From Medicago truncatula (lineage: Eukaryota; Streptophyta; Magnoliopsida; Fabales; Fabaceae), in contig NC_053043.1 in NCBI RefSeq assembly GCF_003473485.1, positions 31,906,576 to 31,970,575 on the forward strand: a stretch of 64,000 nucleotides of DNA, written 5' to 3'. Positions 11,687 to 50,826 of the stretch are shown here, one piece after another; the first letter of the stretch is position 1; each line of letters begins with the position of its first letter. The notes under the pieces were generated by a model. That model was not told the DNA's origin. It made no database searches and worked only from the letters and a program-made list of their open reading frames with translations. Position numbers and translations under genes: made by a program.

Positions 11687-13535
11687 TCACCGTTCGTCTC
11701 CTTTCCAAAAATCCTTTTGTTTTGGACCTTTAGGCCCTTCCCTTGGACCCCAATTCATCTCATAGTTAAGCCAAGGTGGCTCTCTAATTTCTGATCCCAA
11801 ATATTCAGCAGCAACTATTTCATACCCTTTAACCATATCCATCACCAAATCACTCTTACATGCATCATTCCTTATACCAAACCCTCTAACACCTTGCATA
11901 ACACACCCTGGCCTAGGAAACAATGCATGACCATGCAATGAAGAATAAAGCACAGGCCTATTACCATTTTTAAACTCAAGGTCACATGCATCAACCCATT
12001 GACCCTTGCTATGTTGTGATAAATAAACCATCCATAATTCTCCACTAAAGTTGCTTACCCTTAATGTCACATGCTCCCAGTCTCCCACATGTTCACCTTT
12101 AGTCCTCAATGGAATGTTCATGAATGCAACTTTTGCTCTTGCACCCCCATTAAATGGATAGAAAACCCACATGACTAAATCAGTGAAAGTTCCTCCAAGC
12201 ATTGGTTTTACATGAACATAAGCTTTGGAACTTTGTAAATCTCCTTTTTTGACTCTTTCTTTCGCAGCTTCATCCATAGGCAGGTCCAACCAATAGCTAG
12301 ACATACCTATGGATGAACATCCTTGAGGAAGGTTCGATCCCGTTGGTTCGATTGGACTCACATTGATGACACCATCTCTTTTTTCGCAGAGTATTGTCCC
12401 GTTTATGAAAAACCATTCCACGGAGGAAGGAAGGTACTTATCCATAGGATGCAAGTACATATATGGAGAGTAAGCCTTGATTAATGTCTCAATTTGGTGT
12501 AAATTAGGCATGGAAGAAAATTTAATAGCATTGGTATTTTTCAAACAAACAATAGGCAAAGTTTTAGAATTTTTCCTTCCACATTGAGCAAGGAAGGTTC
12601 CTACATAAACACCTTTAGCTTCAACACCTCTCTTCATTGGTCTAACATCATAAACATTGAACCTCTTGTTTTCTGTTCTCCAAAGCTTTATTGACTTGTA
12701 TTTGACACATTCATCAGTGAGGTCTGATCTAACACACATGATTTTGTCTAGTGAAGGCTTCTCTTGGGAAGTAGTAACAACATGGCCAACAACTTTGTAG
12801 CCATCAGGTGCTATTGGTAACCAAATATAACCTCGTATATCTTGTCTGTTTTGAAGAGACTTTATGTTACATACCAATTTGTAATTAAGTGGTTTTTTTA
12901 AAGCTCTATTTGTGGTTGAAGAGTTATCTTTACCTACAAGAACCCAACCATGAAGAGGTTTGTTGTTTGGTTGGCAATAGTATCCTAAAACAAAGAAGCC
13001 TTCAGATAAACCTGTTGGTTCAAAAATTGTAACTCCAAGATCATCTGGTCCACCTTCATTGGTTGTCCAAACTTTGTTGAATGTTGAAATTTGTGACACT
13101 AATAAACCACCACCAAGGTCAATGATGCCACTTGCAAATCCATCACCTTCAAATAAAATGATAAGCAAAAATAAAATCATCACAAAATAAAAATAAAAAA
13201 AATGCTAACTACATTGCTTATCTTACAATTATTAGAGAATATATATCGAATAAAGCGAATAGGTGTATAAATCTAGGAATCATTGACACCAATATCAGAC
13301 ATGACACTGACACATCGAGACCAGTGATAGTTTAAGAAAATAAAATAATTAAATATAACCACATGCGTTGGTGTCAAACACAAAATACACATTCAATCTG
13401 AAGTTTTGGTGCTAAATATGTATAAATCATGTGATTCATACCTGGTGGCAAAACTGGTATATCAGAAGGAAGCTTAAATGAGGTTTCAATGAGTGGACTT
13501 CTCTTTTTCTTGGAATTGCTATGAGAACTCAACAT
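11687..13535 (-). CDS. Vps62/DUF946 family protein, copy 1 (short C-terminus)
   Basis: Two exons, 13535-13442 and 13146-11687, phase 1, 517 residues. Exon 1 codes a Ser/Lys-rich start (MLSSHSNSKKKR) and the conserved SFKLP segment. Exon 2 codes the family body: IDLGGGLLVSQ, YIWLPIAPDGYKVVGHV, IMCVRSDLTDEC, YDVRP, YLPSSVEWFF, YVHVKPMLGGTFTDLVMW, FYPFNGG, HVGDWEHVTLRVSN and SLHGHALFP. Plant members are annotated after yeast Vps62, which was found through a vacuolar sorting screen; the molecular role in plants is unknown. Compared with the other four copies, it lacks about 45 residues before the terminal GPKGPKQK tail (no ELKNVEKLLPGKLK-type helix), and it is the most divergent. No signal peptide is visible, so a cytosolic product is inferred. 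Confidence 0.88.
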
Positions 13536-15197
13536 TGCTAAGTGTTATTGTCTAGAAAGGCTGAAGACTGAATGTTATTCAATATATATATATATGACTA
13601 TTGTTACGTAAAATTAAAAGAGGTGCACTTTGCATGAAGCATATTCTTTTCTTGTAACTTTGCTGCAAACATAGGTTTCGTAAAATGACAATAGTATTAA
13701 TATAACAGAAGAATAATCCTTGAAATATGAAAAAGTGAAGTCCTATATTAATTATCCCCTAGTTTATATATAGATAATCAAGCACCTTCCTTGCTTGGTC
13801 TTAGAGATATACTTCCAATAAGAATAATCTTCTTTTCCTTTAGAAATTTCATGACTATTCTAGATGCTGTAGATGGCGTTAACCAAATTGTATCAAATTA
13901 CAAATAACTAATAGATTGAGAAAGGAAAGTATATTTTTGAATCAAAGATAAGGTTGATTTGGTGAAAAGAGAGCTTGTAATTATTCATTTACTGCACAAC
14001 ATTGCATATTTCATCTTTTTCTTTAATTGGTTGGTACTTATTCTGTTCAAAAACATTTGTGCAAGACATTTAGAATGTTGAAAAATGCTACATATAATAT
14101 AAAACATGTAAATTGTAATAACCCCAAATATAAACATTACTTCAGTTATTGATGATTACATAAAGTTGCCTAGTATGTATGTAACTAAATGACCTTTCTG
14201 CATATGAATATATAGAAATTCCTCCAGATTATATCCTTGAACCAGAACAAATGCACCAGAGTTAATAAGAGTGTTGGTCAAGTAACTGGAAAAACAACTT
14301 TAAAAATCATTAATAAATTTAATTTAGCCTTTATAAAATAACAATCGTTTGTTTATATAATAATTGTTTTTAATAAAATTAATGAATAATGTCACAATAA
14401 TATATTATATATATATAGACTATTTTGGCTTTTTTCTGATAAAATTTTGTATATTGTAAAAGCATAAAATACTGTAAAAGCTTAAGGAAAACCTTGGCGT
14501 AACGATAAAGTTGTTGTTACAAGGTAAGTTTGTGTACAATTTGTATATTAAAAAATGACATGAAAAAAAATAAAGGATAAAATCATTGTCTAAAATTAAG
14601 TTAAAAGACGATGAATGTAATTTTAGTATTTTACGAATAACTTATAAACTATTTTCTTTTCCCCCACAAGGATAAATCACTATCTGTTGAGTCAACACCA
14701 ACAAGTTGCTCTCTTATGTTAGAGTTCAACTTAATCATTCACAATTTTCTCGTGGTCCAATTTAATTTTTGACAATTTCTTTCAAACTAGTCTCTAACCT
14801 TTTTATATTGTGACAAATTATTCCATTTGTTAGAATGAGCCGGAGCACCTGACAAGGATATGTACTAATGTGTCTTTAGTATAAAAATGTCAATGATTAA
14901 TTTGTGCATTCCTTTTTATTTGAGACTAAATTGAACGTAAAGAAAATTATGAAATTTAATGTTTACTTCGATATAATTCTACAAATCAAATCACACCCAA
15001 ATTGAACAAAATTCTCATAAGCATTTAAGAGAATTCATTTTACACCAAACACCCTCAAATGGATAGATCATAGATTGACTATGTTTGTTGGTTGACTTTG
15101 GAACAAACAATTGTGGACATAAACTCAGAATCACAAGTCCACAGCCCAAAATAATCATACAACCTAATTCAGTCTCTACTTTTCCTTGTTTGTTAAC
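13536..15197. other. Intergenic between Vps62 copy 1 and the CC-NBS-LRR pseudogene
   Basis: A divergent intergenic region. An (AT)n run at 13582-13596, about 47 bp from the ATG of the Vps62 copy, might serve as its TATA box. At about 14486-14530 the phrase CCTTGGCGTAAC followed by TAAAGTTGTTGT resembles the A-box end of a legume tRNA-derived SINE, but the rest is missing. I see no gene. Confidence 0.5.
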
Positions 15198-17688
15198 ATG
15201 GCAGATTCATTTCTCTTTGATATTGCTGATTCACTCCTTGAAAAGCTTGCTTCTTATGCTCATGAAGATCTACAAGGGATCAAAGACACTTTGTCAATTG
15301 TCAAATGTGTGTTATTGGATGCTGAAGATAAGAAAGAGCGAAACCATGGGCTGCGTGAATGGTTAAAGCAAATTCAAGACATATGCTACAATGCTGAAGA
15401 TGTGTTCGATGATGTCGAGTGTCAAAACTCGCGAAACCAACTTGTTCAAGCTTCTGGCAGCAAAAGGATGAAGGTAGGACACTTCTTTTCTTTGCCTTTT
15501 TTTCGTCTTAGGATTGCTCATCGAATTAAAGATGTTAGAGATAGATTGGATAAGGTAGTAGCTGATGGGAATAAGTTTGGTCTTGAGAGAATGGATTTTG
15601 TTGTAGAAAAGAGAGAAATGACTTATTCTCATGTTGTGCTTTAGATGTTATTGGAAGGGATAGTGAAAAGGAAGAAATTATCAAGCTCTTGATGCAACCC
15701 TGTTGTACTCACCGAGGTGAGGAGGGCAATAAAAGTCTCTGTGTTATTCCTATAGTGGGAATTGAAAATGTGGGTGTGTGTGTCATATGATTTTGACATT
15801 AGGCAGATAATTATTAAAATGATTAACTCAACTTCAACTTCAACTCAAAGACCAGTTTTGGCTCTTTCTCACCAAGAAAACATTGAACACTTTGATATTG
15901 AGCAATTAGTGAGTCGTCTTAGACATAAGCTTTCAGGTAAAAAGTTTGTACTCGTCTTAGATGATATATGGGATGATAACCGTTCAAAATGGATTGAGTT
16001 GAAAGATCTGATAAAAGTTGGTGCAGTAGAAAGCAAAATCTTAGTGACAACACGTAGTAACTTGATTGCTTCGATGATGGGAACGGTTCCCATGTATACT
16101 TTAAAAGGTCTTTCTTTGGATAATTGTTTGTCTCTCTTTGTCAAATGGGCATTTAAGGAAGGAGAAGAAGTAAAGTATCCACATCTATCGGAGATTGGAA
16201 AAGATATAGCGAAAAAATGCCGAGGGATTCCATTAGCAGTGAAAACGTTAGGAAGTTCACTCTTCTCAAAATTTGATTTAGATAAGTGGAAGTTCGTCAG
16301 GGACTCCCAAATATGGAATTTAAGGCAAAACAAAGATGATATTTTACCTGTGCTTAAGTTAAGCTATGATCAAATGCCATCCTATTTGAGACATTGTTTT
16401 GCTTATTTTTCCCTTTTTCCCAAAGATTATCTTTTTACTCTTGGTGAAATTTGTAATCTATGGGATGTATTTGGATTAGTTCAATCACCAAATGGAAGTC
16501 AAAAGCTAGAGAACATTGCAAGAGATTATATAGATGAGTTACATTCAAGATCATTTCTTCAGGATTTTGAAGACTTTGGCCAGACATGTGTTTTCAAAGT
16601 ACATGATTTGGTGCACGATCTTGCAATGTATGTAGCAAAAGACGCATTTGTGGTGGTAAACTCCTATACTCAAAATATACCTGAGCAAGCAAGACATTTA
16701 TCAATTGTTGAAAATGACTCACTTGGTCATGCTTTGTTTTCCAAGTCGAAAAGTGTGAGAACTATTTTGTGTCCCATCCAAGGAGTAGGTGTCGATAGTG
16801 AAACTCTCTTGGATTCATGGATATCAAGATACAAATACTTGCGCTATTTAGATTTAAGTGATTCTTCATTTGAGGAGCTGCCTAATTCGATTTCTAAATT
16901 GGACCTTCTTCGAGTTCTCATTCTTTCTCGCAACAGCAAAATCAGAAGACTTCCTCATTCTATATGTGAACTCCAAAATTTGCAAGAGTTGTCAGTCAGA
17001 GGATGCATGGAGCTTGAAGCATTGCCTAAAGGACTAGGGAAGCTAATCAACCTTCGACAATTGTTTATAACAACAAAGCAATCTGTTTTGTCACATGATG
17101 AATTTGCAAGCATGCACCATCTTCAAACTTTGGGTTTTCATTATTGTGACAATTTGAAGTTTTTCTTTTACGCTGCACAACAACTCGCTTCCCTTGAAAC
17201 ATTGTTTGTTCAATCATGTGGGAGCCTAGAGGTCTTACCTCTATATTTTTCCTAAATTACAAACTCTGTTAATTTCGGACTGTGAGATGTTAAATCCATG
17301 GTTATGTAATGAATGCCCAATCACAAACTTAAGCTTGATGAAACATCTGTATCTTGGGGATTTTCCAAGTCTTTTGACGTTGCCTCATTGGATTTTAGGT
17401 GCTTCAAACACATTACTTTCCTTGGTAATTAAAAATTTTCCAAACCTTAAGTCGCTCCCCGAGTGTCTATCATTCTTGACTTGTCTTAAGAGGCTTCAAA
17501 TTGTTGACTGTCCTCAACTGTTGAGTCTTCCAAATGACATGCATCACCTCATTGTCCTCAAATACTTGGGAATAGACGGTTGTCCTGAATTGTGCCGAAA
17601 ATGTCAGCCTCAATTTGGTGAGTACTGGCCCATGCTTTCTCATGTCAAACACGTTTTCATTGGAGATCCAAATGGAAAGGAAAACTGA
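15198..17688 (+). pseudogene. CC-NBS-LRR (CNL) disease-resistance pseudogene
   Basis: Start at the ATG of MADSFLFDIADSLL. An Rx-type coiled coil comes first (15198 to about 15600, with EDVFDDVEC). The NB-ARC region follows with kinase 2 (KFVLVLDDIWDD), RNBS-B (ILVTTRS), GLPL as CRGIPLAVKTLG, RNBS-D (CFAYFSLFPKDY) and MHD-like VHDLVHDLA. Then come LRRs to the natural end near 17688. The Trp after kinase 2 (LDDIW) marks the non-TIR class. Three lesions are visible: a frameshift and stop near 15640; loss of the P-loop region at about 15755-15765, where IPIVGI runs straight into MWVCVSYDF so the GGxGKT nucleotide-binding loop is gone; and a one-base frameshift near 17250 in the LRRs. Plant CNLs are intracellular immune receptors; this one cannot make a normal product. 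Confidence 0.9.
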
Positions 17689-19480: not shown

Positions 19481-22400
19481 TCAAACTTCATCACCATTCC
19501 AATTACCCTTTTCCTTTGGACCTGTTGGTCCTTCCTCTCCCAGCAATTCTTTTGGTAAACCCATAATAATTTTTTCAAAAACATCTTTTAACTTCCCAGG
19601 CAATAACTTCTCAACATTCTTCAACTCATCATCTAGACTATAGTCCACATGTGGACCCCATTCCCTAAAAAAATTCAACCATGCTGGCTCTTTAACTTCA
19701 GACTCCAAATACTCAGCAGAAACCAATACATATTTTCCCATATCCATAACATTGCTACCTTTATCAGTATCATCTCTTGCACCTACTCCATTTTTCCCTA
19801 GTAGATGAAGGCCACCATGTGGATATGATGCATGACCATGCCGAGAAGCATAAACCACAGGTCTTTGTGTCGGAAAATCAAAACTGCTATTATCCATTTG
19901 AAACTCAAGTTGAGATGCATCAACCCATGAACCACCATTATGTTGAGAGAAATAGACATGCCATAACTGACCATCCAAGTTACTTACCCTTAATGTCACA
20001 TGCTCCCAATCACCAACATGTTCACCTACTTTTCCCAATTTAACATTTATAAACTTTATTTTAGCTTTTGCAGGTCCATTGAAAGGGTAAAAAACCCACA
20101 TGGCAATATCAGTGAATGTTCCTCCATACATTGGTTTCACATGTACATATGATTCTGCACTTTGTAGATTACCTTGCTTGACCCTTTCTTTGTTTGCATC
20201 ATCAACAGGTAGGTCAAGCCAATAGGCACCATCATTGTTAGGATCCTGAGGAAGGTTAGTACCATTTTGTTCTATTGGAACAGGATTTGACTCTTCACCT
20301 TTCTTGTATAGTAACGCTCCATTGGAGAAAAACCAATTGACAGAGGAAGGTAAGTATTCTTCATCAGGATGTAAGTATAGGAATGGAGAGTAAGAGTGGA
20401 GTAATGTCTCAATTTGTGTTTGATTAGGCATGATTTGTGAAATAGAATTGAGATTCTTCAAACACGAAATTGATGGAGGGTTAGTATTCCCACCATTTTG
20501 AGCAACGAAGGTGCCAACGCGAACACCGGGAGCTTTACTTCCTCTATTAATTGGTCTAACGTCGTAGAAATTTAAGTCGTTTGATCCCCAAATCCATGTA
20601 GAAGACTCACATTGCTCAGTGAGGTCTGCTCTGACACACATGACTTTGTCGGGGGAAGGTTTGTCTTGTGTTGTGGTGACAACATGGCCTACAGCATGGT
20701 AGCCATCAGGTGCTATCGGTAACCAAATATACAAAGGGGAGTCTTGATCAACCATGACGGATGCGGTGTTTGATACTAATGTGTAATCAACTGGTGGCTT
20801 TAAAGTGCCATTAGTGGTACTTCCTGAAATATCCTTTGCTGCAAGAACATATCCAAAAAGAGGTTTGTTGTTGGGTTGGCTGTAGCTGCCTAACATAGAA
20901 TATCCGTACCTCAGTCCTGTTGGTTCGTACACCGAGGCGCCTTGATCATCCGGTCCACTTTCGTAGGCGCCCCAAACTTTGCTGAATGTTGATGCTTGCA
21001 TCACATGCAGCTCACCTAGATCAATGACTGTGTTTGCGAAACTGGTACCTGTATTTTGCAATTCAACACTTGCTACAGTTAGCCTGCATTTACTATCATG
21101 TACTACAAGAGGACAGAAAATTAAAATCACATAAACAATACCTTCGCTTGAAGAAGTTTGTGCAATAGGAAGCTTGAATGTGTGGTCAATGGGGCGAGAG
21201 CGTGATCGGGATACAGATCTCTTTTTCTTTAAGACATTCTTATTCTCTGCAAACGAAAACATGATGTAAGACAATTTACATAATGTGTTAATGCAATGAG
21301 AATGAGATGATTTGCTAAAATTTTTATCAACACAAGAGAAAAACTAATGCAAAAAAAAGTACTCGTTATCAAGTGCACATAGTAGCAAAATAAAACATGC
21401 ACAAATATCAAGTCATTTATTTATTTTTGGAAATAAATATCAAGTTATTTTGTATGGACAATATTTTTTCATAAAAAACACGCCATATTTCATAAAATCG
21501 ATCTCTAGTTAAAACGAACATTTCTTTTTCTGCAGAAAGAAGTTCACACCAATAAAAAAGGATGAGGAATTAATTTAGTAAACGGGTAGCATATAAAACT
21601 TAAAATTAGAAAAACATAAACTCACTTTTGACCGCCATAGTTTTTCAATTGTGAGACTTTGACCCCTAGTTAACTCATTTTCTGACTTGTATATTACCAT
21701 ATTTTTTAATTTATTATTTAAATAAAAATATTGACTAATTCAACACACATATTTATTAAAAATAAAAAAATGGATTAATGAATATTTATTTAGTATATAC
21801 AAAATATTTTACTGCCTCCGTACCTAATTATAAAGCCCTTTTGAAAAAATAACGGGAATTAAGATAGTTGATATTTGTATTAAATATGTTTGTAATTACT
21901 ATTGTTTTCAACATTCTATTTATTGCTGATTGAAGAAAAAGATGTATGATAAATAGGGACATGTATGTAAAGAAATAATTAACGAAGTTAGAAATAAAAA
22001 AGGGGTCTTAATAAAAAGGGACAAAAAAAATTCTCAAAAGAGTCTTATAATTAGGGACGGAGGTAGTACATTATAAATATCAATATATTATATTATTTTT
22101 ATTTGCATAATTTTAAAACTATAGACCAAAACTTTAATTAAGTCAATTTTATTTTTATTCCTAAACATGAAACGAATCTTAAATTTCTAACAAAAAATGA
22201 CAATTTCATAGTTTCACTTGACAAAGGAGAAAGGAACCAGATTATTTGGATGTGTAAGTTTTAACAATGTAATAATTTGTTCCTGTGAAAAGAAAGAAAA
22301 CTATATGTACGTAATAACATGCGAGAATCTACACGTAATAGATTGAAGCTGCAACAAAATGTATGGTGCAAGTACACGTAAATTAACTTCTTAACGCATC

Positions 22401-22802
22401 ATTCATATCACCAATTAAGTTCTATACACCATTTTGTTCAACTATAATCTATTGTTACGTATGGTTTTTTCACCCAACATCCCAAATGGTATATACCCAT
22501 TTTTTCTATTTATTTTGTGGCTTTCTCCAAGAAAAACATTAAGCAAATAAATAAATATATGGTAACAATGGCACATAAGGTGTTACACGTTAGGCGCCGC
22601 CGTTGTGTTGTCTCTTTAGTTAGCTGATTGCGCGTCTTGTGCAGGTTAACCTTAATAAATAATATTTGTCGATTAAAAAAATATGGCATAGAAAAAAAGT
22701 ACCTGAAATTTGATCAGTTGGTGCAGCTGTAGGAACCCCCATTGCTTCCATTGCTATGAAGAGCACAACACAAACACAAAGAATCCCCACATTCATGCCC
22801 AT
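19481..22802 (-). CDS. Vps62/DUF946 family protein, copy 2, with signal-peptide exon
   Basis: Three exons: 22802-22703, 21246-21142 and 21048-19481, phases 1 and 1, 590 residues. Exon 1 (MGMNVGILCVCVVLFIAMEA, then MGVPTAAPTDQIS) is a hydrophobic segment with a small-residue site after AMG, typical of a cleavable signal peptide. Exon 2 (ENKNVLKKKR, SRSRPIDHTFKLP) is basic and matches the first exon of the plus-strand copy at 42109. Exon 3 holds the Vps62 body, including YIWLPIAPDGYHAVGHV, VMCVRADLTEQC, YVHVKPMYGGTFTDIAMW and GEHVGDWEHVTLRVSN. The ending is KEKGNWNGDEV. An in-frame ATG 12 bases before exon 2 (MFSFAEN) could start a shorter protein, but in copy 3 the same ATG is out of frame, which favours the spliced form. 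Secretory-pathway entry is inference. Confidence 0.85.
21815..22063. mobile_element. Stowaway-like MITE, copy 2
   Basis: Ends CCTCCGTACCTAATTATAA and TTATAATTAGGGACGGAGG, with the same internal words as the copy at 9223-9511 but shorter by about 40 bp. It lies inside intron 1 of Vps62 copy 2. TA follows the right end; the left flank has decayed. Confidence 0.8.
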
Positions 22803-22896: not shown

Positions 22897-22912
22897 TATT
22901 ATAAATATATAA
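22897..22912 (-). promoter_or_regulatory. Probable TATA box of Vps62 copy 2
   Basis: On the minus strand the sequence reads TTATATATTTATAATA, about 95 bases before the ATG at 22802. The same box, in homologous flanking sequence, lies ahead of Vps62 copy 4 at 38817-38831, which supports a shared ancestral promoter. Confidence 0.55.
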
Positions 22913-24801: not shown

Positions 24802-27800
24802 TCAAATTTCATCACCATTCCAATTACCCTTTTCCTTTGGACCTGTTGGTCCTTCCTCTCCCAAGGCTTCTTTTGGTAAACTCCTAATAATATTTTCAAA
24901 ACCATCTCTTAACTTCCCAGGCAACGCCTTAGCCACATTCTTCAATTCAATATCTAGATCAAAGTCAATATGTGGACCCCACTCCCTAAAATAATTCAAC
25001 CATGCTGGCTCTTTAACTTCAGACCCTAAATATTCTGCACAAACCAATACATATTTTCCCATATCCATAACATTTCTACCTTTATTAGTATCATCTCTTG
25101 CACCTACTCCATTTTTCCCTAGTAGATTAAGGCCAGCATGTGGATATGATGCATGACCATGCAAAGAAGCATAAACAATAGGTCTTTTTGTTGGAAAATC
25201 AAAACTACTAGCATCACTTTGGAACTCAAGTTGAGATGAATCAATCCATTTACCAGCATTGTGTTGAGAGAAGTATACATGCCATAATTGACCATCGAAG
25301 TTACTTACCCTTAATGTCACATGCTCCCAATCACCAACATGTTCACCTGCTTTTCCCAATTTAATATCTATAAACTCTACTTTAGCTCTTCCAGCTCCAT
25401 TGAAAGGATAAAAAACCCACATGGCAATATCAGTGAATGTTCCTCCATACATTGGTTTCACATGTACATATGATTCTGCACTTTGTAGATTACCTTTCTT
25501 GACTCTCTCTTTGTTTGCATTATCAACTGGTAGGTCAAGCCAACAGGAACCATCAGTGTTAGGATCCTGAGGAAGGTTATTACCATTTTGTGCTATTGGA
25601 ACAGGATTTGATTCTCGACCTTTCTTGTATAGTAATGCTCCATTGGAGAAAAACCAATTAACCGAGGAAGGTAAGTATTCTTCATCGGAATGTAAGTATA
25701 AGAATGGAGCATTAACTTGGAGTAGTGCATCAATTTGTTTTTTACTAGGCATGATTTGTGTAATAGAATCAATATTCTTCAAACATGAAATTGATGGCGG
25801 GTTAATATTCCCACCATTTTGAGCAACGAATGTGCCAACTCGAACACCGAGAGCTTTAATTCCTCTATTAATTGGTCTAACATCGTAGAAATTTAAGCCG
25901 TTTGATCCCCAAATCAATGTAGACGATTCACATTGCTCTGTGAGGTCTGATCTGACACACATGACTTTGTTGGTGGAAGGTTTATCTTGTGTTTTGGTGA
26001 CAACATGGCCTACAGCATGGTAGCCATTAGGTGCTATTGGTAGCCAGATATACAAAGAAGAGTCTTGAGTAACCGTGATGGATGCAGTGTTCAATACTAG
26101 TGAGTAATCAACAGGTGGCTTTAAAGTGCCATTAGTCTTTCCTGAAATATCCTTTGCTACAAGAACATAACCAAAAAGAGGCTTGCTGTTGGGTTGGCTG
26201 TAACTGCCTAACATAGAGTATCCATACCTCAATCCTGTTGGTTCATACACTGAGGCGCCTTGATTGTCCGGTCCACCTTCGTAGGTGCCCCAAACTTTGC
26301 TGAATGTTGATGCTTGCATCACATGCAGCTCACCAAGATCGATGATTGTATTTGCGAAACTGGTACCTGTATTTTGCAATTCAACACTTGCTACAGTTAG
26401 CTGCATTCACTATATTGTATTGCAAGAGAACAGAAAATTGAAATTACATAAAGGATACCTTCTGGCCAAGAAGGTTGTGAAACAGGAAGCTTGGATGTGT
26501 AGTGAATGTGGCGAGAGCGGGATCGCTTTTTCTTGAAGACATTCTTTATCTCTGCAAACAAAAAAACATGTGGTTTGGTAAAAAAAAAAACTATAAGGTA
26601 GCTGATAGCTGAAAAATTAGCTTATAATTGATGGCTGATAGCTAATAGCTTATAGCTGAAAAGTTAGCTGATTAAAATTAAAAGTGTTTGGTAAAATTAG
26701 CTGTTAAAGTGACTATAAATAAAAAATGACATAAAAGGACATGCTTCTTTAATTTTTTTTAATATCATATATATAATTTTTTTTGAAGGAATCATATATA
26801 TAATTTTAATTACTTAACACATTTATTTTTAAATATTTAAATATATTTTAAATTATTTTCATCTCCAAAATAATAAATGTATTTATGAATTCAATCAAAT
26901 TTTTTTATTTAACAATTTTTATTTTATTTTTATGAATTTTATTTAACTAAACTTGCTTCACTATTATGAATTCTATATAAAATTATATATTACATGAATT
27001 ATGAGCAAAGTAAAAAAAAAACAAAAAAGTGGACAAGAAAATTTAAAAAGCCATACATAGTAAACATGGTTAGTTTAAGAAGATAGTGGGTAGTTTTTTT
27101 TATTATAATAAAATAAAATAAAATTAAGAAAAGGTTAAAATGGGAAGAAAGTATAAAAAGCTACAAGCTATAAGCTAAAAAGCTACTTGGATTAGCTTCT
27201 TAAAAAACGCTATAAGCTAGTGAGAAAAGCTTTTTACCAAACATATCTCATTTTATCAAAACAAGCTTATAAGCTAGTCCAACAAGTTATAAGTTAGCTT
27301 TTTTGTGTTACCAAACACAGCCTTAATGCAAGGGGAATAAGGTCTTTTGTTAATTATTAAGTTCAAATATTAGGTCTAACAAATACTTATAAAATCAACT
27401 TATAAGATGAGGAGTGTTATTCCTTGTAAACTTTTTTAGCATAATTTTCCATGTGAATTTGATTTGGAGTAAGTATCTATTAGAGACCTTAAAATTAATA
27501 ATATTCTATGGAAATCTTGGGAAGCTCGCTAAGAATTAGCTTTTCCAGAACCCAAAAACAAATATCATAGATGCATAGAATTAGCTTGCTAAGAATTGTC
27601 TTTTATTTTGTCGTCTAAGTGAGAGTCGGTTGTGTTGTTCGTTTTCTTGCTGTGGCGATTTAAGTTTTCATTTTGTTGCAGTGTTTATTCGGTTTGAATT
27701 GATAGATTTTCTTCGTTTAGAGCACATTACAAATTCAAGTAATGTTTTTAGCGTCTTCAATGTTATAGATCCTTAGCCAAATTGGATATTTCGGACACCT

Positions 27801-30800: not shown

Positions 30801-31254
30801 TAGTCAGTTTTTTAAATAGATTTGTTTTTGTATGCATTTGATTTGGACAGCTTGTGTTTAAATTATTTGGAAGGAGTGAAATTATCGTCTTTTGATGGTT
30901 AGAGGCCAAGAATTCAAATTCATCTTATTTTGGTGGTTAAAGGCCAATAATTCAAATTTACCTTTTGAGTTGAGTTCTTGATGGCATAATCCGTTGGTTT
31001 GTCTTGTGCACTTGGTTGTCAATTTTGTGATGTTATTTCTTTGTTTTTTTTGTTGTTTCGATTTTTTTATTCTTATATATTGATACTTTGTTGTTGTTTC
31101 AAACCAAAAATTAAATAAATAAAGATAAAGTAACAGTGACAAGAAGAAAAGTACCTAAAAGTTGACCCATTGGTGTAGCTCTAGGAAACCCCATTGATTC
31201 AATTGCCATGAAAAGCACAACACAAACACAAAGAATCCTCACATTCGTGCCCAT
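24802..31254 (-). CDS. Vps62/DUF946 family protein, copy 3, with signal-peptide exon and long intron
   Basis: Three exons: 31254-31155, 26551-26459 and 26366-24802, phases 1 and 1, 585 residues. Exon 1 (MGTNVRILCVCVVLFMAIES, then MGFPRATPMGQLL) is the same length as in copy 2 and is again signal-peptide-like. Exon 2 is basic (EIKNVFKKKRSRSRH). Exon 3 carries the full Vps62 body and ends KEKGNWNGDEI. Intron 1 is about 4.6 kb and full of transposon debris (a Tourist-like element, a Ty3 reverse transcriptase scrap, a Stowaway, a LINE tail). The flank before exon 1 matches copy 4 only for about 120 bp, so the TATA-bearing part of the shared promoter is not evident. Exon 3 is intact and very similar to copy 2. 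Whether the distant exon 1 is really used is uncertain. Confidence 0.75.
26567..27322. mobile_element. Tourist-like MITE in intron 1 of Vps62 copy 3
   Basis: The right end reads TACCAAACACAGCC followed by TTA; the left end TGTGGTTTGGTA is its imperfect inverse. Subterminal AGCTGATAGCT/AGCTTATAAGCT-type words repeat in both orientations, as in many plant hAT/PIF MITEs. The left boundary and target duplication are not clear. Its left end lies about 15 bp from the exon 2 acceptor (minus strand). Confidence 0.65.
27323..28439. other. Intron 1 of Vps62 copy 3, no gene seen
   Basis: AT-rich intronic sequence. At 28281 the phrase CAGTGGCGGAGCCAA looks like the terminus of a plant hAT-type element (compare the intact one at 40681-41311), but I did not find a matching right end. 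Confidence 0.45.
28440..28590 (-). pseudogene. Ty3/gypsy reverse transcriptase fragment
   Basis: On the minus strand this translates to a recognisable piece of Ty3-type reverse transcriptase: VVLVKKSSGK, then RMCIDCTDLYKACPKDAYLL and P-K-I-N-KLVD, with one stop in place of the usual Trp. It lies in intron 1 of Vps62 copy 3, antiparallel to nothing else recognisable. The DNA on its right (to about 29640) may be further remnants of the same element, but it is too decayed to name. Confidence 0.65.
28591..29747. other. Unassigned intronic sequence, possibly transposon remnant
   Basis: This stretch is less AT-rich than its surroundings and lacks a long frame. Its base composition and position beside the Ty3 reverse transcriptase scrap suggest decayed LTR-retrotransposon DNA, but no domain is visible. 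Confidence 0.35.
29748..30021. mobile_element. Stowaway-like MITE, copy 3 (different family)
   Basis: Terminal inverted repeats CTCCCTCCGTTCC and GGAACGGAGGTAG with TA on both sides. Subterminal TTTTTAAGTGTCAC and GTGACAATTAAAAAGG are also inverted. 274 bp. Distinct in its interior from the copies at 9223 and 21815. Confidence 0.85.
30060..30485. repeat. Long imperfect inverted repeat (MITE-like)
   Basis: Left half phrases (TTAATTTTAGGTTTTACTTT, GACATTTTGGTCCCTTAAGT) are answered in inverse order on the right (TAAGGGACATAACTGAAACC, then TTAAAATTACTTACGGGACC). About 420 bp, non-coding, of the legume 'GTCCCT' repeat style. Confidence 0.55.
30486..31154 (+). mobile_element. LINE 3'-end remnant in intron 1 of Vps62 copy 3
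   Basis: From about 30840 one frame reads IWTACV, then FWWLKANNSNLPFELSS and WHNPLVCL, which resembles the end of legume LINE ORF2; an A-rich tail lies near 31108-31130. A block with GGTTA(G/A)AGGCCAA is present twice 51 bp apart. It ends only about 25 bp before the exon 1 donor of Vps62 copy 3. The left portion (30486-30840) is unassigned. Confidence 0.5.
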
Positions 31255-34724: not shown

Positions 34725-37700
34725 TCAAACTTCATCACCACTCCAATTATTCTTTTGCTTTGGACCTGTTGGTCCTGCCTCTCCCAACGCTTCTTTTGGT
34801 AAACTCCTAATAATATCTTCAAAACCGTTTTTTAACTTCCCAGGCAATAACTTCTCAACATTCTTCAACTCATCATCTAGACTATAGTCCACGTGTGGAC
34901 CCCATTCCCTAAAATAATTCAACCATGCTGGCTCTTTAACTTCAGACCCTAAATACTCTGCAGAAACCAATACAAATTTTCCCATATCCATAACATTCTT
35001 TCCTTTATTAGTATCATCTCTTGCACCTATTCCATTTTTCCCTAGTAGAACAAGACCAGCATGTGGATATGATGCATGACCATGCAATGAAGCATAGACA
35101 ACAGGTCTTTTTGTTGCACCTATTCCATCTTGGAACTCAAGTTGGGATGAATCAATCCATGAACCAAGATTATGTTGTGAGAAATATACATGCCATAATT
35201 GACCATCCAAATTACTTACCCTTAATGTCACGTGCTCCCAATCACCAACATGTTCACCTATTTTCCCTAATTTCACATTTAAGAACTCCACTTTTGCTCT
35301 CCCAGGTCCATTAAAAGGGTAAAAAACCCACATGGCAATATCAGTGAATGTTCCTCCATACATTGGTTTCACATGTACGTATGATTCTGCACTTTGTAGA
35401 TTACCTTTCTTGACTCTCTCTTTGTTTGCAGCATCAGCAGGTAGGTCTATCCAATAGGCACCATCAGTATTGGGATCCTGAGGAAGGTTAGTACCATTTT
35501 GTGCTATGGGAACAGGATTTGATTCTTCACCTTTCTTGTATAGTAATGCTCCATTGGAGAAAAACCAATTAACCGAGGAAGGTAAGTATTCTTCATCAGA
35601 ATGTAAGTATAGAAATGGAGAGTAAACTTGGAGCATTGCCTCAATTTGTTTTTTATTAGGCATGATTTGTGAAATAGAATTGAGATTCTTCAAACATGAA
35701 ATTGATGGAGGGTTAGTATTCCCACCATTTTGAGCAAAGAAGGTACCGACTCGAACACCAGGAGCTTGAGTTCCTCTATTGATTGGTCTAACATTGTAGA
35801 AATTGAAGTTGTTTGATCCCCAAATCCACGAAGAAGACTCACATTGGTCTGTGAGGTCTGATCTGACACACATGATTTTGTCAAGTGAAGGTTTATCTTG
35901 TGTTGTGGTGACAACATGTCCTAAAGCTTTGTATCCATTAGGTGCTATTGGTAACCAAATATAAAGAGTGGAATCTTGAGTAGCCTTGAAGGATGCGGTG
36001 TTCGATACAAGTGTGTAATCAACTGGTGGTTTTAAAGTTCTACCTGTGGTACTTGAAGAAACATCCTTTGCTACAAAAACATATCCAAAAAGAGGCTTAT
36101 TGTTTGGTTGGCTGTAGCTACCTAACATAGAGAATCCTTTAGGTATTCCTGTTGGTTCATACACGGAGGCGCCTTGATTGTCCAGGCCACCCTCGTACGC
36201 ACCCCAAACTTTGCTGAAAGTTGATGCTTGATACACTTGTAGCCCACCTAGATCGAGGAATCCGCCTGCGAAACCATTACCTGAATGTCGCAATTCCAAC
36301 ACTTGGTATAATTAGCATGCATTCACTACTAGAATGTATAAGAGGACAGAAAATGAGAAACACATAATGGATACCTTTTGGCCAAGAAGTTTGTGCAATT
36401 GGAAGTTTGAATGTGTAGTCAATGGGGCGAGAGCGGGATCTTGGTCGCTTTTTCTTAAAGATGTTCTTATTCTCTGCAAACAAAAACATGTGGTAAGACA
36501 ATTACACGATTTTGTTAATGATCTTGCGGTTGTGAAATTATCATTATCATCATTGTATTTGCTGCATTATTATCAACAGAAGGGAAAAGCTCGTAGAATA
36601 AAGGTACTCTGTTATGTAGTATCAAATGCATACATAGTGAAATAAGACTTGCACAAATATGAAGTATAATATAAGTTTTTTTTTAAGGAGAAAAGTCCAT
36701 ACACCAAATCTCTAGAAATTCAACCCAATATAATAACAATAATAAGGCTCGTTAATTTAGTTAAGGGATAGAATATATAACTATAAATTAGAATATGTTT
36801 TTCTAGATTGCCTTTTAAAAAATTGTGAATATTTTATCTAACAGTGAAAATTGTTGGAGTATTTTCGTACCACACATTTTCACGCAGCCTCAACAAAAAT
36901 GTGTGGTACAACAAATACAAATAGAGTATATTACATAGTTAAAATGTGTGATACATAATTATTATATTGTATCTCGTTGTATTGAACACGAAATAATATA
37001 AACATCTTTTCTTAAAAATAAAATAAAATACGGTAGCATTGTAAAACTTCACTCTAACCCATAGCAAAGGGCATGTAAGACTATTCAGTCAAATGGATTC
37101 ATAAAATGAATATATTTTTTTTTCCATTTGATTGGACGGCCAAACAAGGAAACCCACTTTTCAATAAATTTTCCTTCCTCAACTTTTTTTTATAAATTTT
37201 CCTTCTTCCTCTTAGGAGTATAATTTATTTTGCATATCTCTCATGTATGTATTATTTATTTGCTTATAATTTTTTAATATGAATATTTAATAAAGATTCA
37301 ATCTCTTCGGTTTAATATTTCATCAAAAATAAATTTAAAAATTTCATCAATAGTTTTATAACATCTATCCATAACTTTATATTATTACATTTTAATATTT
37401 AAATATGTTTTTAAAATATATATATTTAAATAATAGAGGTCCCACGTAGAGAGAAGATGTTTACAGTAGCATATATACTCACTAAACCATCTTCTATTTT
37501 TCTTCGCGATGGAAGTACCTATGAGGTAGATTATTTGGATTAGGTGTAGGTTGGTCCCAAGACTTTTGATGTTATGAGCGAATCAATAAAATTGTTCTGT
37601 TTTGATTAAGTATTTTTATCATATATTTTTTGCTGCAAAAAATTCATTCATAAATAAAGTTTTTTAAAAAATATTTTCAATAAAATTAATCAAAGCGAGT

Positions 37701-38650
37701 TTAAAATAAATATTTATATCTATTACTACTAAGTAAAATAATCCACTTAGATAGTTTTTGTGATCCTCTCAAGATCTCAAGTTCGATTCACACCAACACC
37801 AACTTCTACAGCCAAGTTTGCCTTCTTACAAAAAACTACAAACTAAATATAATAAGTTTGGTGGCCTAAAAAATGGTGTCATGAGCGGCCGTCTCTCCGC
37901 CCATGCTCATGGCGACCCCTAATTAGGTGCTGTCTAACTGGATGTATTTAGTTTATCTGGACTGTGCGGTCTAGATTGGACAGTGCATATTTTAAACTCG
38001 GATCAAGATCGGACATATACTTCACAAACATATATTTAATTCCTTCAAAAAAAAAAATATTTAAAAAACTGTTGATAATTTATTTAACATGAATAAAACA
38101 ATGGCCACATGAACTTCGTTAACATCTTTTTTGTAATGTACTTCATAAACATATATAGTTCTTGTTACTTGCAAAATAATTTTCATAGACCTTACAAATT
38201 TACTCGTGTGACTACTTAGTAAATCATCTACAATTTTTTAAAGACAACCCAGAAAAATCCATACCCCACCGTTTCGTTCAAAAACTTATCTATCAACTAT
38301 TTATGTATATCACTGTCGTATTCTCTGTATGTATATTTTTTTCACCCAACACTTCAAAAGGTATATACTATATACTCATTTTTTATATTTATTTTTTGGT
38401 TTTCCCAATGTTCTTATCCCCATATCTACATGTGAACACAACAAAACAAGAACAAACACGGCAATCTCCAAGAAAAACATTAAGCAAACCAAAAGATAAG
38501 TAAATAAATAAAGATAAAGTAACAATTGCAGAGAAGAAAAGTACCTAAAAATTGATCCATTGGTGCAGTTTGATGAACTCCCATTGCTTCAATTGCCATG
38601 AAAAGCACAACACAAACACAAAGAATCCTCACATTAACATTCACACCCAT
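34725..38650 (-). CDS. Vps62/DUF946 family protein, copy 4, with signal-peptide exon
   Basis: Three exons: 38650-38545, 36473-36375 and 36280-34725, phases 1 and 1, 586 residues. Exon 1 (MGVNVNVRILCVCVVLFMAI, then EAMGVHQTAPMDQFL) is signal-peptide-like and two codons longer than in copies 2 and 3. Exon 2 is basic (ENKNIFKKKRPRSRSRPIDY). Exon 3 carries the Vps62 body with FLDLGGLQVYQAST, YIWLPIAPNGYKALGHV, IMCVRSDLTDQC, YVHVKPMYGGTFTDIAMW and GEHVGDWEHVTLRVSN; it ends KQKNNWSGDEV. No disruption is seen. Intron 1 is 2.07 kb with a repeat at 37640-37922. A TATA box lies about 170 bp before the ATG. Secretory targeting is inferred from sequence only; mature function unknown. Confidence 0.87.
37640..37922 (+). 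repeat. Repeat in intron 1 of Vps62 copy 4, related to 31507-31735
   Basis: Shares TTAATCAAAGCGA, CTACTAAGTA and a G/C-rich end with the inverse copy at 31507-31735. The two lie on either side of the Vps62 copy 4 exons 2 and 3. Probably a non-autonomous class II element; family not identified. Confidence 0.5.
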
Positions 38651-38816
38651 TTTTATAATCCTTTCTTTCCACAACCTCAGATCTCTAAAGCTCAAACACA
38701 ACCTTATCAAATAGTCAACTCTCTTTTGTTCTAACACGTTTGTTTATTGAAGTTAGCAGAAAAAGCACATAGTTGTTAGTGGTGGTTGATACTCCTCAAT
38801 ACTCAGCCAGCTTTGT

Positions 38817-38831
38817 CCTATAAATATATAA
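38817..38831 (-). promoter_or_regulatory. Probable TATA box of Vps62 copy 4
   Basis: Minus strand TTATATATTTATAGG, about 170 bases before the ATG at 38650, in sequence homologous to the promoter of copy 2. The flank further upstream (to about 39075) is also shared with copy 2. Confidence 0.55.
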
Positions 38832-39289
38832 ATGTGGTTTGTGTTGGATTTGGGTTAGATCCACTCACTCACTCACTGGCTCTCATTAATAAGTTAGGTA
38901 CTTTTAGAAAAGGCATAGCATTCTTTTCTTTGCTCAGTTCTCATTTCCCACTTTTGGTTATGATGATTCCTAATATATTTTATTTTCTCTCTATATTTTT
39001 CCTATTTTTTTTATTTAACACTTTTTGGTTTTTTCTTGGGTATGCTTTTGTCCCTTTCATTAAGGCTGAATCACGGACAAAAGTAAAGGGTATATCATGG
39101 GAGGAACAGTATTAATAAAAGAAAGAAATAAAAAGCATGAATGAGTGGACAATAGAAAATAAAAAATGAGTGATGTTATGGAAGATATATTACATAATGG
39201 ACTCTATTTTTTTATTAGGCACAAAATAGACTCCTTGGACTACCATTGTATCGTTCAGTTACGAGGATTTTATAACCCCTATCTGTTAT

Positions 39290-40680
39290 GCCTCACCCTA
39301 ATAACATGTGCCCTAACATGTACCTTACATGTTTGAAATGTGACTCAAAATTGATGTTGAAGCATTGGAAAAATCGTGGCAGGTTAACATGGTTTCGTGG
39401 CATGATACGATTTGTGAGTTTGTGTTCTGGAAGTGTTACTGGAAAAATCGTGGCACGATGCAGGAGATAAGATCAAGTATTGTACTGTTACCAACTCCAA
39501 TGTGGCACGATGGGTTGGCAACGTGGCACGGTGCCTCGGGGTCTGGGCACTATTTAAGGCTTCATTCTTCATCTATGCAGTCCGAATACTCCAAAATGGA
39601 GATGTACCCGTATCAGATACGTATCAGATACCGATACTTCACAGATACTCGCGGATACGTACCCACTGAGTATCGGAATTAATTATTTTAATTTAAAATA
39701 TATATTTTATTGGATACTTATAAGATACTCGATAAATACACACATATACTTATAAGATACTTCACATAAACGTATCCTAAAAAATGAAAGGTAAAAAAGT
39801 GAGTCTGTTTTGTGAAAATTCAATGGAGATGTGTATGATTCAATTTAAGATATGAGTCACTATAATTGTTTCTCGATTAACCAATTAAAAATTATGTTTT
39901 TGGTGGATGAAAGTAATGAAAGAGGGGAGATTCAATCAATCAACATTAAATAAACGTAGTTTTGAGTTCTTTTACCGATAAATTTGTTGATATCCTAACA
40001 TTATGAATGAAAATAAAATATGATTTATACGAAAACTTTACATTTTTTATTTTGATCGCTTGTATTATTTTTTGTAAATTATGACTTTTATGATTTTATA
40101 GTATTGAAGAGTAATCAATGCTTATTTTTTCAAGTATTTTACATGATATAAATTTTAGTATAAATATTTTGTTAACGTATCTTAGCCGTATGGTATCCTG
40201 AATTTTAAAATTTCGTGTATTCACGTACCTGTAGCATATTGTATCCCCACCCGTACAACGTATCCGGGCTTCATAGTTCTTCATGTGGATCTTTGATTAG
40301 AGTTTTAGGTTCTCTTGAGTTGGGAACATTGTAAACACTCTCGGTGAGTGAAAATTATTGAGTGTTCTTTGGTGAGATTGAAAAAAGTGTAGAAATTAAG
40401 GTTTGTTCTTTGTGAGTTTGTTGAAGCTAATTTCTTGTAACACTTTTGTATCTTTTTGTAAGTACTCATTGATAGTGGATTGGAGAGATCACTCTCTCCC
40501 TTAGAGTAGGTCAAGTTGGACCGAACCGGGTAAACATTTTTTGTGTGTTTGTTTCTCTCCTCTCCTTATCTTTTGCTTGTGGTTTTGTGTTTTTCACTTT
40601 GATTATTAGATCTAAGTTTTGTTATTGTTGTTCCTTGTGATTACTTTAATATTGGTTACTACTTTCCTTTGCTCTACACA
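39290..40680 (+). mobile_element. LTR-like remnant split by a 'GATACG'-rich insert
   Basis: The outer parts look like one LTR. Around 39365-39560 there are repeated CGTGGCACGAT words and a TATTTAAGG box; around 40280-40560 there is GGATTGGAGAGATCACTCTC, then AGAGTAGGTCAAGTTGGACC, a phrase style seen in legume Copia LTRs. Between them, about 39607-40265, is a block whose ends are inverse to each other (GTATCAGATACGTATCAG and GGATACGTACCC against GTATCCCCACCC and AACGTATCCGGG). No coding region is present. Ends and target duplication were not fixed. Confidence 0.4.
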
Positions 40681-41311: not shown

Positions 41312-41319
41312 TCCACACA

Positions 41320-42108: not shown

Positions 42109-44058
42109 ATGGATAATTGTCTTTCTTCATGTTGTTGTGTAGATAATCTCTTCAAGAGAAAGCAATTCCGATCCCGTCCCATTGACACCACATTCAAGCT
42201 TCCTGTTGCTCCAAATGCTTGGCCACCAGGTATTCATCATGTGATTGTCAATTTCACTCTTATAGGTTTAATATGATTTTTTTTTTCCTCTACATAAGGA
42301 CTAAAGTAGTTTTTTTTTCAAGGAGACTAAAATGAATATTACACACATATTAAAGGGATTAATTGTATAATTGCAAGAATTATAAACAAAATATTTTTTA
42401 TAGTAACTATTTAGTATGGTTACCAAAATATACTTAGTGCTGGGGGATTTCAGTTTTTGGTTAAATATTCTAGTTAATGCATGCTGATTATAACTAGTGT
42501 TGGATTGTTCTATATAGGTAGTGGTTTTGCAAATGGAATCATTGATCTAGGTGGACTTCAAGTGTCACAAGTATCAACATTTAACAAAGTTTGGGCCACC
42601 TATGATGGTGGACCAGATAATCAAGGTGCCACAATATTTGAACCAACAGGTATACCTCAAGGATTCTCTATGTTGGGTTGCTACAGCCAACCTAACAACA
42701 AACCTCTTTTTGGATATGTTCTTGTGGCAAAGGATGTTTCTTCAAGTACTACTAATAGCACTTTAAAGAAACCAATTGATTATACACTTGTATTGAACAC
42801 ATCAACTATTAAGGTTAATCAAGATACCACATGTTATATTTGGTTACCAATAGCACCTGATGGTTACAAAGCTTTAGGCCATGTTGTCACCGCAACACAA
42901 GATAAACCTTCCCTTGACAAAATCATGTGTGTCAGATCAGACCTCACAGACCAATGCGAGTCTTCTTCGTGGATCTGGGGATCAAACGACTTCAATTTTT
43001 ATGATGTTAGACCGATCAATAGAGGAACTCAAGCTCCCGGTGTTCACGTTGGCGCCTTTGTTGCACAAAATGGTGGGACTAATATCCCTCCATCTATTTC
43101 ATGTTTGAAAAATCTCAATTCAATTTCCAAAATCATGCCAAATCTAGTACAAATTGATGCAATACTCAAAGTTTACTCTCCATTGATGTACTTACATCCT
43201 GATGAAGAATACTTACCTTCCTCGGTTAATTGGTTTTTCTCCAATGGAGCATTACTATACAAAAAAGGTGAAGAGTCAAATCCTGTTCCAATAGCACAAA
43301 ATGGTATTAACCTTCCTCAGGATCCTAACAATGATGGTATCTATTGGCTTGACCTACCATCTGATGATGCAAACAAAGAGAGGGTAAAAAAAGGAAATTT
43401 ACAAAGTGCAGAATCTTATGTACATGTGAAACCAATGCTTGGAGGAACCTTCACAGATATTGCCATGTGGATTTTTTACCCTTTTAATGGACCAGGAAGA
43501 GCAAAAGTGAAGTTTATAAATGTTAAATTAGGGAAAATAGGTGAACATATTGGTGATTGGGAGCATGTGACATTAAGGGTAAGTAATTTGGATGGTAAAT
43601 TATGGCATTTATATTTCTCACAACATAGTAAAGGTGAATGGATTGATTCTTCTCAGCTTGAGTTTCAATCAAATAGACCTGTTTTTTATTCTTCATTGCA
43701 TGGTCATGCATCATATCCACATGAAGGACTAGTTCTTCAAGGGAAAAATGGAATAGGTATTAGAAATGATAGTGCTAAGAGTGAAATGATTTTGGATTTG
43801 ACAAAATTTGTATTGATTTCTGCTGATTATTTAGGGTCTTTTGTTATAGAGCCACCTTGGTTGCACTATTTTAGGAAATGGGGTCCAAAAATTGATTATA
43901 ATATAGATGAGGAGTTGAGGAAAGTGGAGAAGATATTGCCAGGGAAACTAAAAGATATTTTTGAAAATATTATTAGGAGTTTACCAGAAGAAGTGCTGGG
44001 AGAGGAAGGACCCACAGGTCCAAAGCTGAAGAATAATTGGAGTGGAGATGAAGTTTGA
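42109..44058 (+). CDS. Vps62/DUF946 family protein, copy 5 (plus strand, ancestral-type first exon)
   Basis: Two exons, 42109-42229 and 42518-44058, phase 1, 553 residues. Exon 1 codes MDNCLSSCCCVDNLFKRKQF, then RSRPIDTTFKLP: a Cys-rich, then basic start without a hydrophobic core, so a cytosolic or lipid-anchored protein is more likely than a secreted one. The Cys cluster at residues 4-10 could be palmitoylated; Gly2 needed for myristoylation is absent (Asp instead). Exon 2 carries the complete family body: IDLGGLQVSQVSTFNKVW, YIWLPIAPDGYKALGHV, YLPSSVNWFFSNGALLYKK, YVHVKPMLGGTFTDIAMW and SLHGHASYP. It has the C-terminal ELRKVEKILPGKLK helix and ends in GPKLKNNWSGDEV. It is inverted relative to the other four copies, but its body is closest to copy 4. 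Confidence 0.9.
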
Positions 44059-50786: not shown

Positions 50787-50826
50787 TGATGGAGCTTGAA
50801 AAAGCTTGCGGAAAAGGAATCAAAAA

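Follow-up and report, generated by a model that had tools for sequence, protein, structure and literature searches.

Does a short hydrophobic first exon send members of the Vps62/DUF946 family, normally treated as soluble proteins, into the secretory pathway, and was that exon gained by the genes that carry it or lost by those that do not? The question arises from five such genes, copies 1-5, in a stretch of 64,000 nucleotides of the 430-Mb Medicago truncatula genome (C2:31906576-31970575), which we call the window. The earlier note on this DNA reported the exon in copies 2, 3 and 4, and proposed its gain in their common ancestor. The explanation that we consider probable is that an exon encoding a signal peptide was gained once, in an ancestor of copies 2-4 and of a fourth gene on another contig (C4b), routing a DUF946 protein to the secretory pathway. 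Its observed basis consists of the exon, the reading frames, the distribution among genes, the tree, a match between an old coding start and the intron-1 tail in three of the four genes, and shared promoter pieces.

Vps62/DUF946 genes in the genome

A genome-wide search with the PF06101 (Vps62/DUF946) profile finds 15 matches, which include 11 full or nearly full domain exons and four short ones. Five of the 11 genes are the window copies; the other six are C1a and C1b (39.6 Mb on contig C1), C2b (32.97 Mb on C2), C4b (63.13 Mb on C4), C4a and C5. We built gene models for all 11 by hand from landmarks. Each model is a single open protein of 517-590 residues, all introns are in phase 1, and in 11/11 models a phase-1 intron precedes the domain exon. 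Copies 2, 3, 4 and C4b have three exons, and the other seven genes have two. The three-exon models of copies 2, 3 and 4 give proteins of 590, 585 and 586 residues with no internal stops. In the genome scan (cut-off 22.1 bits), the window copies score 683-804.5 bits, and copies 2, 3, 4 and C4b cover the profile from position 14 or 15 to 541 of 541; coverage is shorter for copy 1 (positions 16-487 of 541). The C4b protein scores 753.9 bits over positions 2-541 of 541, against the same cut-off of 22.1. Table 1 collects the coordinates.

The four short matches form two pairs (L016 and L017, at 58.96 Mb on C4 and 4.48 Mb on C5), and are perhaps the beta-tripods of VPS13M1/2 described in the available text of PMC7613979. 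The C1a and C1b genes (L009 and L010), about 20 kb apart, encode identical 560-residue proteins; their introns measure 657 and 448 nt, and their upstream DNA differs. Within the window, copies 4 and 5 are transcribed divergently with their start codons about 3.5 kb apart (38650-42109). Copy 1 is adjoined by a CC-NBS-LRR disease-resistance-type gene (15168-17688, plus strand) with its open frame in several pieces, the Rx_N domain in 15168-15641 and NB-ARC and LRR in 15756-17252. A Ty1/copia-type retrotransposon with several open frames occupies 46348-50819 on the minus strand (reverse transcriptase in 47296-48942). Nothing in Rfam reaches gathering score in positions 19000-44500.

Table 1. Exons and related features of the window copies and of C4b (window positions unless a contig is named).
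Feature	Position	Strand	Remarks
Copy 1 exon 1	13442..13535	-	signal-peptide exon not found
Copy 1 exon 2	11687..13146	-	Vps62 domain
Copy 2 promoter element	22900..22911	-	TATATATTTATA, 109 nt upstream of ATG, in promoter block common with copy 4
Copy 2 exon 1	22703..22802	-	signal-peptide-like, 100 nt (33 codons + 1 nt), donor CAG/GTACTT
Copy 2 intron-1 tail	21253..21276	-	matches copy 5 coding start
Copy 2 exon 2	21142..21246	-	basic stretch, RSRPID, FKLP; acceptor GTTTGCAG
Copy 2 exon 3	19481..21048	-	Vps62 domain
Copy 3 exon 1	31155..31254	-	signal-peptide-like, 100 nt
Copy 3 intron-1 stretch	26573..27316	.	744 nt, bounded by inverted repeat (18-nt arms, 89%); ends 21 nt from exon 2
Copy 3 exon 2	26459..26551	-	
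Copy 3 exon 3	24802..26366	-	Vps62 domain
Copy 4 promoter element	38819..38830	-	TATATATTTATA, 180 nt upstream of ATG
Copy 4 exon 1	38545..38650	-	signal-peptide-like, 106 nt (6 nt longer, in frame)
Copy 4 intron-1 tail	36480..36504	-	matches copy 5 coding start
Copy 4 exon 2	36375..36473	-	
Copy 4 exon 3	34725..36280	-	Vps62 domain
Copy 5 exon 1	42109..42229	+	ancestral-type start MDNCLSSCCCVDN...; signal-peptide exon not found
Copy 5 exon 2	42518..44058	+	Vps62 domain; Medtr2g062430 by promoter spacing
C4b exon 1	C4 63123755-63123848		94 nt; exon 2 at 63125313

An additional first exon in four genes

In copies 2, 3 and 4, exon 1 starts with an ATG, is free of stops, ends in phase 1 and joins exon 2 behind a TTTGCAG acceptor. 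With open models and complete PF06101 domains, the three hydrophobic exons described earlier are borne out, coordinates, phase and acceptors included. They are not confined to copies 2-4: a genome search with the exon-1 DNA of copy 2 gives four matches, three in the window and one on C4, the last being exon 1 of C4b. We thus find the exon in 4/11 DUF946 genes. The donors in all four are [CT]AG/GTACTT, and the four lengths given in Table 1 are all 1 mod 3. Searched over 3.4-6.8 kb upstream of each of the other seven genes, exon-1 DNA finds nothing at E up to 0.5, in agreement with the earlier view that copies 1 and 5 lack it. In the same upstream stretches, exon-1 peptides give only short chance-like matches, the best of them 10 residues on the opposite strand (E 0.034), and we reject the idea that any of these seven genes hides such an exon there. 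At the level of titles and beginnings of abstracts, the literature on DUF946, Vps62, Medtr2g062430 and relocalization describes no DUF946 signal-peptide exon.

Pairwise identities among the four genes are 66-86% in exon 1 (gaps included), 40-56% in the first 100 nt of intron 1, and 9-30% at intron positions 101-200. The likeness of the exon is therefore beyond chance. Fixed 100-nt windows upstream of exon 1 are 19-51% identical, a figure depressed by length differences; because local upstream pieces of copies 2, 4 and C4b reach 67-73%, exon 1 stands out against the intron and not against the promoter. The exon-1 dN/dS (Nei-Gojobori, small counts) ranges from 0.5 to 2.7, as in copies 2 and 3 with a dS of 0.068 and a dN of 0.186, and does not demonstrate residue-level constraint, so we do not claim purifying selection. 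The hydrophobic core of signal peptides tolerates residue exchange. For C4b against the three window copies, dS is 0.34-0.41; set beside the values for legume splits, this leads us to expect the exon in pea and clover too, and possibly in chickpea.

The missing sign of protein-level constraint could suit a different reading, in which exon 1 serves as a non-coding leader, or as a tiny gene in its own right, and its open frame is incidental; the unspliced frame does close after 47-74 residues. That reading is hardly credible to us, given four lengths of 1 mod 3 and a conserved ATG, donor and hydrophobic core. A neutral simulation with 14-21 substitutions keeps the ATG, the frame and an 11-residue hydropathy of at least 3.2 in just 2-10% of runs.

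Signal-peptide character of the exon-1 product

We scored N-termini with a hand-entered von Heijne matrix, using a threshold of 3.5 together with an 11-residue hydropathy threshold of 2.0. The four exon-bearing proteins score 4.06 (copy 2), 4.90 (copy 3), 4.92 (copy 4) and 6.17 (C4b) on this hand-entered matrix, with maximal 11-residue hydropathies of 3.29-3.53 in their exon-1 products. The other seven proteins, at their modelled starts, reach at most 1.89 and 1.23, respectively. The signal-peptide character proposed for copies 2-4 thus holds for all four products by this scoring. Both thresholds are passed by 0/4914 internal 60-residue stretches of the 11 proteins, and 0, 8, 15 and 7 of 2000 shuffled exon peptides score as well as the real ones (copies 2, 3, 4 and C4b). 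An uncharged hydrophobic core of 12-14 residues is present in 4/4 peptides, inside the range of about 7-15 for cleavable signal peptides. The best cut has small residues at -3 and -1 in copies 2, 3 and C4b (3/4), with the best site of all in C4b (AAA/Q, score 6.17). Judged from the genes, the protein of the exon-bearing branch, once cytoplasmic, probably now enters the secretory pathway.

The peptides are not uniform. The best matrix cut of copy 4 falls at a site other than that of copies 2 and 3, with Ile at -3. The n-region has one Arg each in copies 3 and 4, and carries neither Lys nor Arg in copy 2 and C4b; positive charge there is common in signal peptides and not strictly required. Because of the copy 4 cut and the uncharged n-regions, we take seriously a rival in which exon 1 is an uncleaved membrane anchor, and the domain could stay cytosolic, tethered to the ER membrane. 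The basic cluster starting roughly 15-22 residues past the core would suit such an anchor. Against it, the uncharged core is short for a membrane span and the cleavage site of C4b is strong, and we regard the anchor as unlikely.

Features of the domain exon also touch on this choice. In copies 2, 4 and C4b its cysteines are just the three that are invariant in the family, against 5 in copy 3, copy 5 and C2b and 11-14 in each of the remaining five genes. An NGT sequon occurs at one alignment column in copies 2, 4 and C4b and in 0/7 exon-less genes, with similar sequon totals in the two groups (4, 1, 2 and 2 in the four exon-bearing genes vs 0-4 in the seven). The low cysteine count and the shared sequon would fit the secretory pathway, and a lumenal domain rather than the anchor; they are weak signs at most, and do not extend to copy 3.

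At the other end of the protein, 6/11 DUF946 proteins finish in GDE[VIL] (for instance at window positions 34728-34739 and at L014:8558-8569), and C4b ends in GDEL. We take these C-termini to be close to the K/HDEL ER-retrieval signal, and presume that they may matter in a protein that enters the ER.

A separate observation concerns the C5 paralog, where an in-frame ATG upstream of the modelled start adds MITTTTLINLKNQVLLVLYLIIVSPLHLLFH, and the longer product scores 4.9. This hydrophobic start (L011:2941-3058, minus strand, just upstream of exon 1) is apparently unrelated to the exon 1 of the four genes. Because of it, a hydrophobic start is not strictly confined to those four, and the C5 alternative start is a possible separate route to the ER within the family.

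The old start region in the tail of intron 1

Copy 5 has a Cys-rich start resembling those of other two-exon members. Its first 36 coding bases give a gap-free alignment with the final 45 bases of intron 1 for three of the four exon-bearing genes; the aligned stretch is 24 bases long in copy 2, 25 in copy 4 and 28 in C4b. Dinucleotide shuffles do as well in 0/5000, 0/5000 and 1/5000 cases, and other 45-mers of the same locus in 0/694, 0/837 and 0/1280 (copies 2, 4 and C4b, respectively). In copy 3 the intron tail does not match the copy 5 start, with 794/5000 shuffles and 84/1223 45-mers as good. The match in copies 2, 4 and C4b speaks for the proposal that a new acceptor turned the old start region into an internal exon. 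Insertion of a transposable element, of which the inverted-repeat-bounded stretch in copy 3 (Table 1) would be the trace, would explain the absent match. The 40 bases upstream of the copy 5 ATG do not match the next part of intron 1, so what can be recognized in the tail is the old start region, with little of the old leader. By eye, GTCTTTC in copy 5 corresponds to GTCTTAC in copies 2, 4 and C4b, a difference that may have created a CTTAC resembling a branch site within the old start region.

The same block bears on the idea that the genes make two products, a secretory one begun in exon 1 and a soluble one begun immediately ahead of exon 2 (MF[SL]FAENKN...). The in-frame ATG that the earlier note placed next to exon 2 does exist in copies 2 and 4, where it lies five codons ahead of that exon and reads through the acceptor. 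In copy 3 and C4b the open stretch that precedes exon 2 lacks an in-frame Met, and a conserved soluble isoform is unlikely for that reason. The block with the alternative ATG is, moreover, the intron tail, and we give the two-product reading a very low probability.

A probable single gain after the split from copy 5

In a tree of the 11 domain exons, copies 2, 3, 4 and C4b form one clade (99/97, and present in 100% of 200 bootstrap trees), with copy 5 as its sister (100/100). Beyond copy 5 come C2b and copy 1, in either order, and then the remaining genes. A codon tree has the same exon clade (100), and puts copies 2-4 together at 90. Because the exon-bearing genes form one nested clade, a single gain suffices; because C4b, on another contig, also has exon 1, that gain predates the ancestor of copies 2-4. 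The gain proposed by the earlier note is thus supported by the tree, at an older date than the one given. For the paralogs of this one genome, which is the scope of our inference of direction, the simplest history is one exon gain after copy 5 split off and before copies 2-4 split from one another. The 11-gene tree and the match of the copy 5 start to the intron-1 tails argue for gain rather than loss.

When we add a bacterial relative as a very distant outgroup (branch 3.17, a long branch), the exon clade is kept (99/98) and the root lies outside it. The bacterial relatives do lend something to the reading in which exon 1 is ancestral and has been lost in copies 1, 5, C2b and others: three of them have signal-peptide-like starts. 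With the exon clade nested, however, that reading needs several independent losses; none of the other seven genes has a match to exon-1 DNA in the 3.4-6.8 kb upstream that we covered, and the Cys-rich start of copy 5 is like those of the other two-exon members. We judge it highly improbable.

Shared promoter pieces and the search for a donor

Copies 2 and 4 share a promoter block (-262 to -33 and -356 to -103, respectively; 71.5% over 260 columns). Copy 4 and C4b share two pieces, -538 to -292 with -603 to -380 (67.3%) and -185 to -81 with -151 to -59 (72.6%), and copy 2 and C4b share just two short ones. There is a weaker piece between copies 3 and 4 (63.5%), and a single 40-nt piece far upstream between copies 4 and 5. 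Promoter pieces containing a TATA are common to copies 2, 4 and C4b, and so is TATATATTTATA, found at -146 of C4b in addition to the positions in Table 1. The element is absent upstream of copies 3, 5, 1 and C2b, in a comparison of seven genes (copies 1-5, C2b and C4b). A 666-bp query with the promoter and exon of copy 4 gives 10 genome matches, all at the four exon-bearing loci, and the shared promoter pieces therefore go with the exon.

We find no donor elsewhere in the genome, as both the copy 2 exon DNA and the copy 4 promoter with its exon match only the four exon-bearing loci. Genome searches with the exon peptides of copy 4 and C4b also give no donor; their reach is limited, since they recover 3 and 1 of the four known loci, and a diverged donor could have escaped them. 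Mycorrhizal promoter motifs have no consistent pattern in the exon-bearing genes.

Copy 5 is Medtr2g062430

In the available text of PMC9554486, Medtr2g062430 belongs to the DUF946 family, has CCAAT motifs at -1324, -1005 and -505, and is tabulated among the genes differentially expressed in mtpt4 mutants. In copy 5, CCAAT occurs at -1417, -1098 and -598 from the ATG, with spacings identical to the published ones and a constant shift of 93. On these grounds we conclude from the sequence that copy 5 is Medtr2g062430. With both strands counted, the window contains the triple a single time (40692, 41011 and 41511, for a reference point at 42016), and 0/300 shuffled windows contain it. The text of PMC9554486 names the start codon as the reference of its CCAAT positions, but no ATG stands at position 42016. 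That position probably marks the 5' end of Medtr2g062430 as annotated, in which case the annotated gene would have no exon upstream. In the literature on DUF946, Vps62, Medtr2g062430 and nearby gene names, we found nothing on the expression of copies 2-4.

Proposed sequence of events

The starting gene would have been a two-exon DUF946 gene with a short polar or Cys-rich start, a phase-1 intron and a long domain exon. Upstream of it, a new promoter and a new first coding exon would have been acquired. A 3' splice site would have arisen in the old start region, turning that region into the tail of intron 1 and the remainder of the old first exon into exon 2. The new exon would encode the signal peptide, with its hydrophobic core and a plausible cleavage site; since it joins in phase 1, the old protein would be read unchanged behind it. 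The product would be synthesized on ER-bound ribosomes and the peptide cleaved off, leaving in the secretory pathway a mature protein with a short linker, a basic stretch and then the intact Vps62 domain. The event would have taken place a single time, on the branch that leads to copies 2-4 and C4b, once copy 5 had separated. Of these steps, we infer splicing in vivo, the newness of the promoter, cleavage, route and destination.

Relatives and possible function

Four bacterial loci with PF06101 relatives were found, and we looked at the N-termini of three: L022 (Oligoflexia), L023 (Phycisphaerales) and L025 (Planctomycetota), with 27, 29 and 35% identity in the best segment. By eye all three are signal-peptide-like, with uncharged runs of 14, 25 and 16 residues. 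L022 matches most of PF06101; L023 and L025 match a part far from the N-terminus, L025 below the curated cut-off. Because these three have export-like starts, secretion is not foreign to the wider family. Among the plant paralogs, the modelled starts agree with the earlier description of the family as normally soluble; the three distant bacterial relatives, signal-peptide-like by eye, and the alternative hydrophobic start of C5 depart from it. We find no DUF946 relatives in viral contigs.

The domain-exon profile also matches PDB 6fbm, the insecticidal MACPF protein GNIP1Aa, at chain residues 338-519 (E 1.7e-7). In the available texts of PMC8624791 and PMC7613979, this part of GNIP1Aa is the beta-tripod, a target-recognition domain. 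The text of PMC7613979 also describes tandem beta-tripods in plant VPS13M1/2, and calls their confusion with Vps62 a spurious alignment error; the 6fbm match may for that reason reflect the beta-tripod region without kinship of the whole proteins. The MACPF pore-forming domain has no match in copy 5, in C4b or in pieces of copy 4 and C1a, and the C-terminal halves of copy 4 and C1a match no other Pfam family. An NPP1-like reading of the GDWE motif we dismiss, as there is no such Pfam match at E up to 10, with filters that drop most matches above about 0.1.

Among the two-exon paralogs, C2b (L013) starts with MGNSSSSS, which we take to look like an N-myristoylation site, and others have Cys-rich starts (MFGFECFCW, MDNCLSSCCC). 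The ancestral DUF946 protein may have been lipid-anchored on the cytosolic side. At the level of titles and beginnings of abstracts, the DUF946/Vps62 literature has no paper on the function of plant DUF946 proteins. Our best guess, held with low confidence, is that the exon-bearing proteins are secreted recognition or defence proteins. A bolder version, which we think doubtful, is that a module of promoter and signal peptide, with no donor found in the genome, turned a cytosolic or lipid-anchored membrane-recognition protein inside out: the beta-tripod/Vps62 domain, cytosolic in the arbuscule-related sister Medtr2g062430, would now reach the lumen, the apoplast or a plant-microbe interface, the ancestral start having become a 3' splice site.

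A single genome here lets one read in which direction a new targeting exon changed the gene, where the breakpoint lies and what the sister state is, with the old start caught as an intron tail. The proposed history predicts secreted DUF946 proteins in a legume clade. Because the relatives include export-like bacterial proteins and an insecticidal recognition part, a secreted plant DUF946 branch would be a lead to defence or symbiosis.

Comparison with known systems

Copies 2, 3, 4 and C4b share with the plant DUF946/Vps62 family the near-full PF06101 domain and the phase-1 intron before the domain exon, and differ from it by the added hydrophobic first exon and an additional phase-1 intron. 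The likeness to GNIP1Aa is limited to the beta-tripod part matched by the domain-exon profile, and no match to the pore-forming MACPF domain is found in the DUF946 proteins scanned. The bacterial relatives have hydrophobic signal-peptide-like N-termini in Vps62-matching proteins, as do the exon-bearing genes; they differ in their identity of 27-35% in the best segment, in the partial matches of L023 and L025, and in having no introns. Relocalization of duplicates is a known kind of event (PMC4202327, PMC2397506). In the Arabidopsis examples, such as PRX36/PRX72 (PMC4202327), a new N-terminus with a new start codon likewise appears, the original start is abolished and a change of compartment is expected. 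The change in PRX36/PRX72, as far as that text describes it, consists of a new start codon, whereas copies 2-4 and C4b have a new exon that comes with common promoter pieces, a splice site within the former start region, and a change of compartment predicted from the genes.
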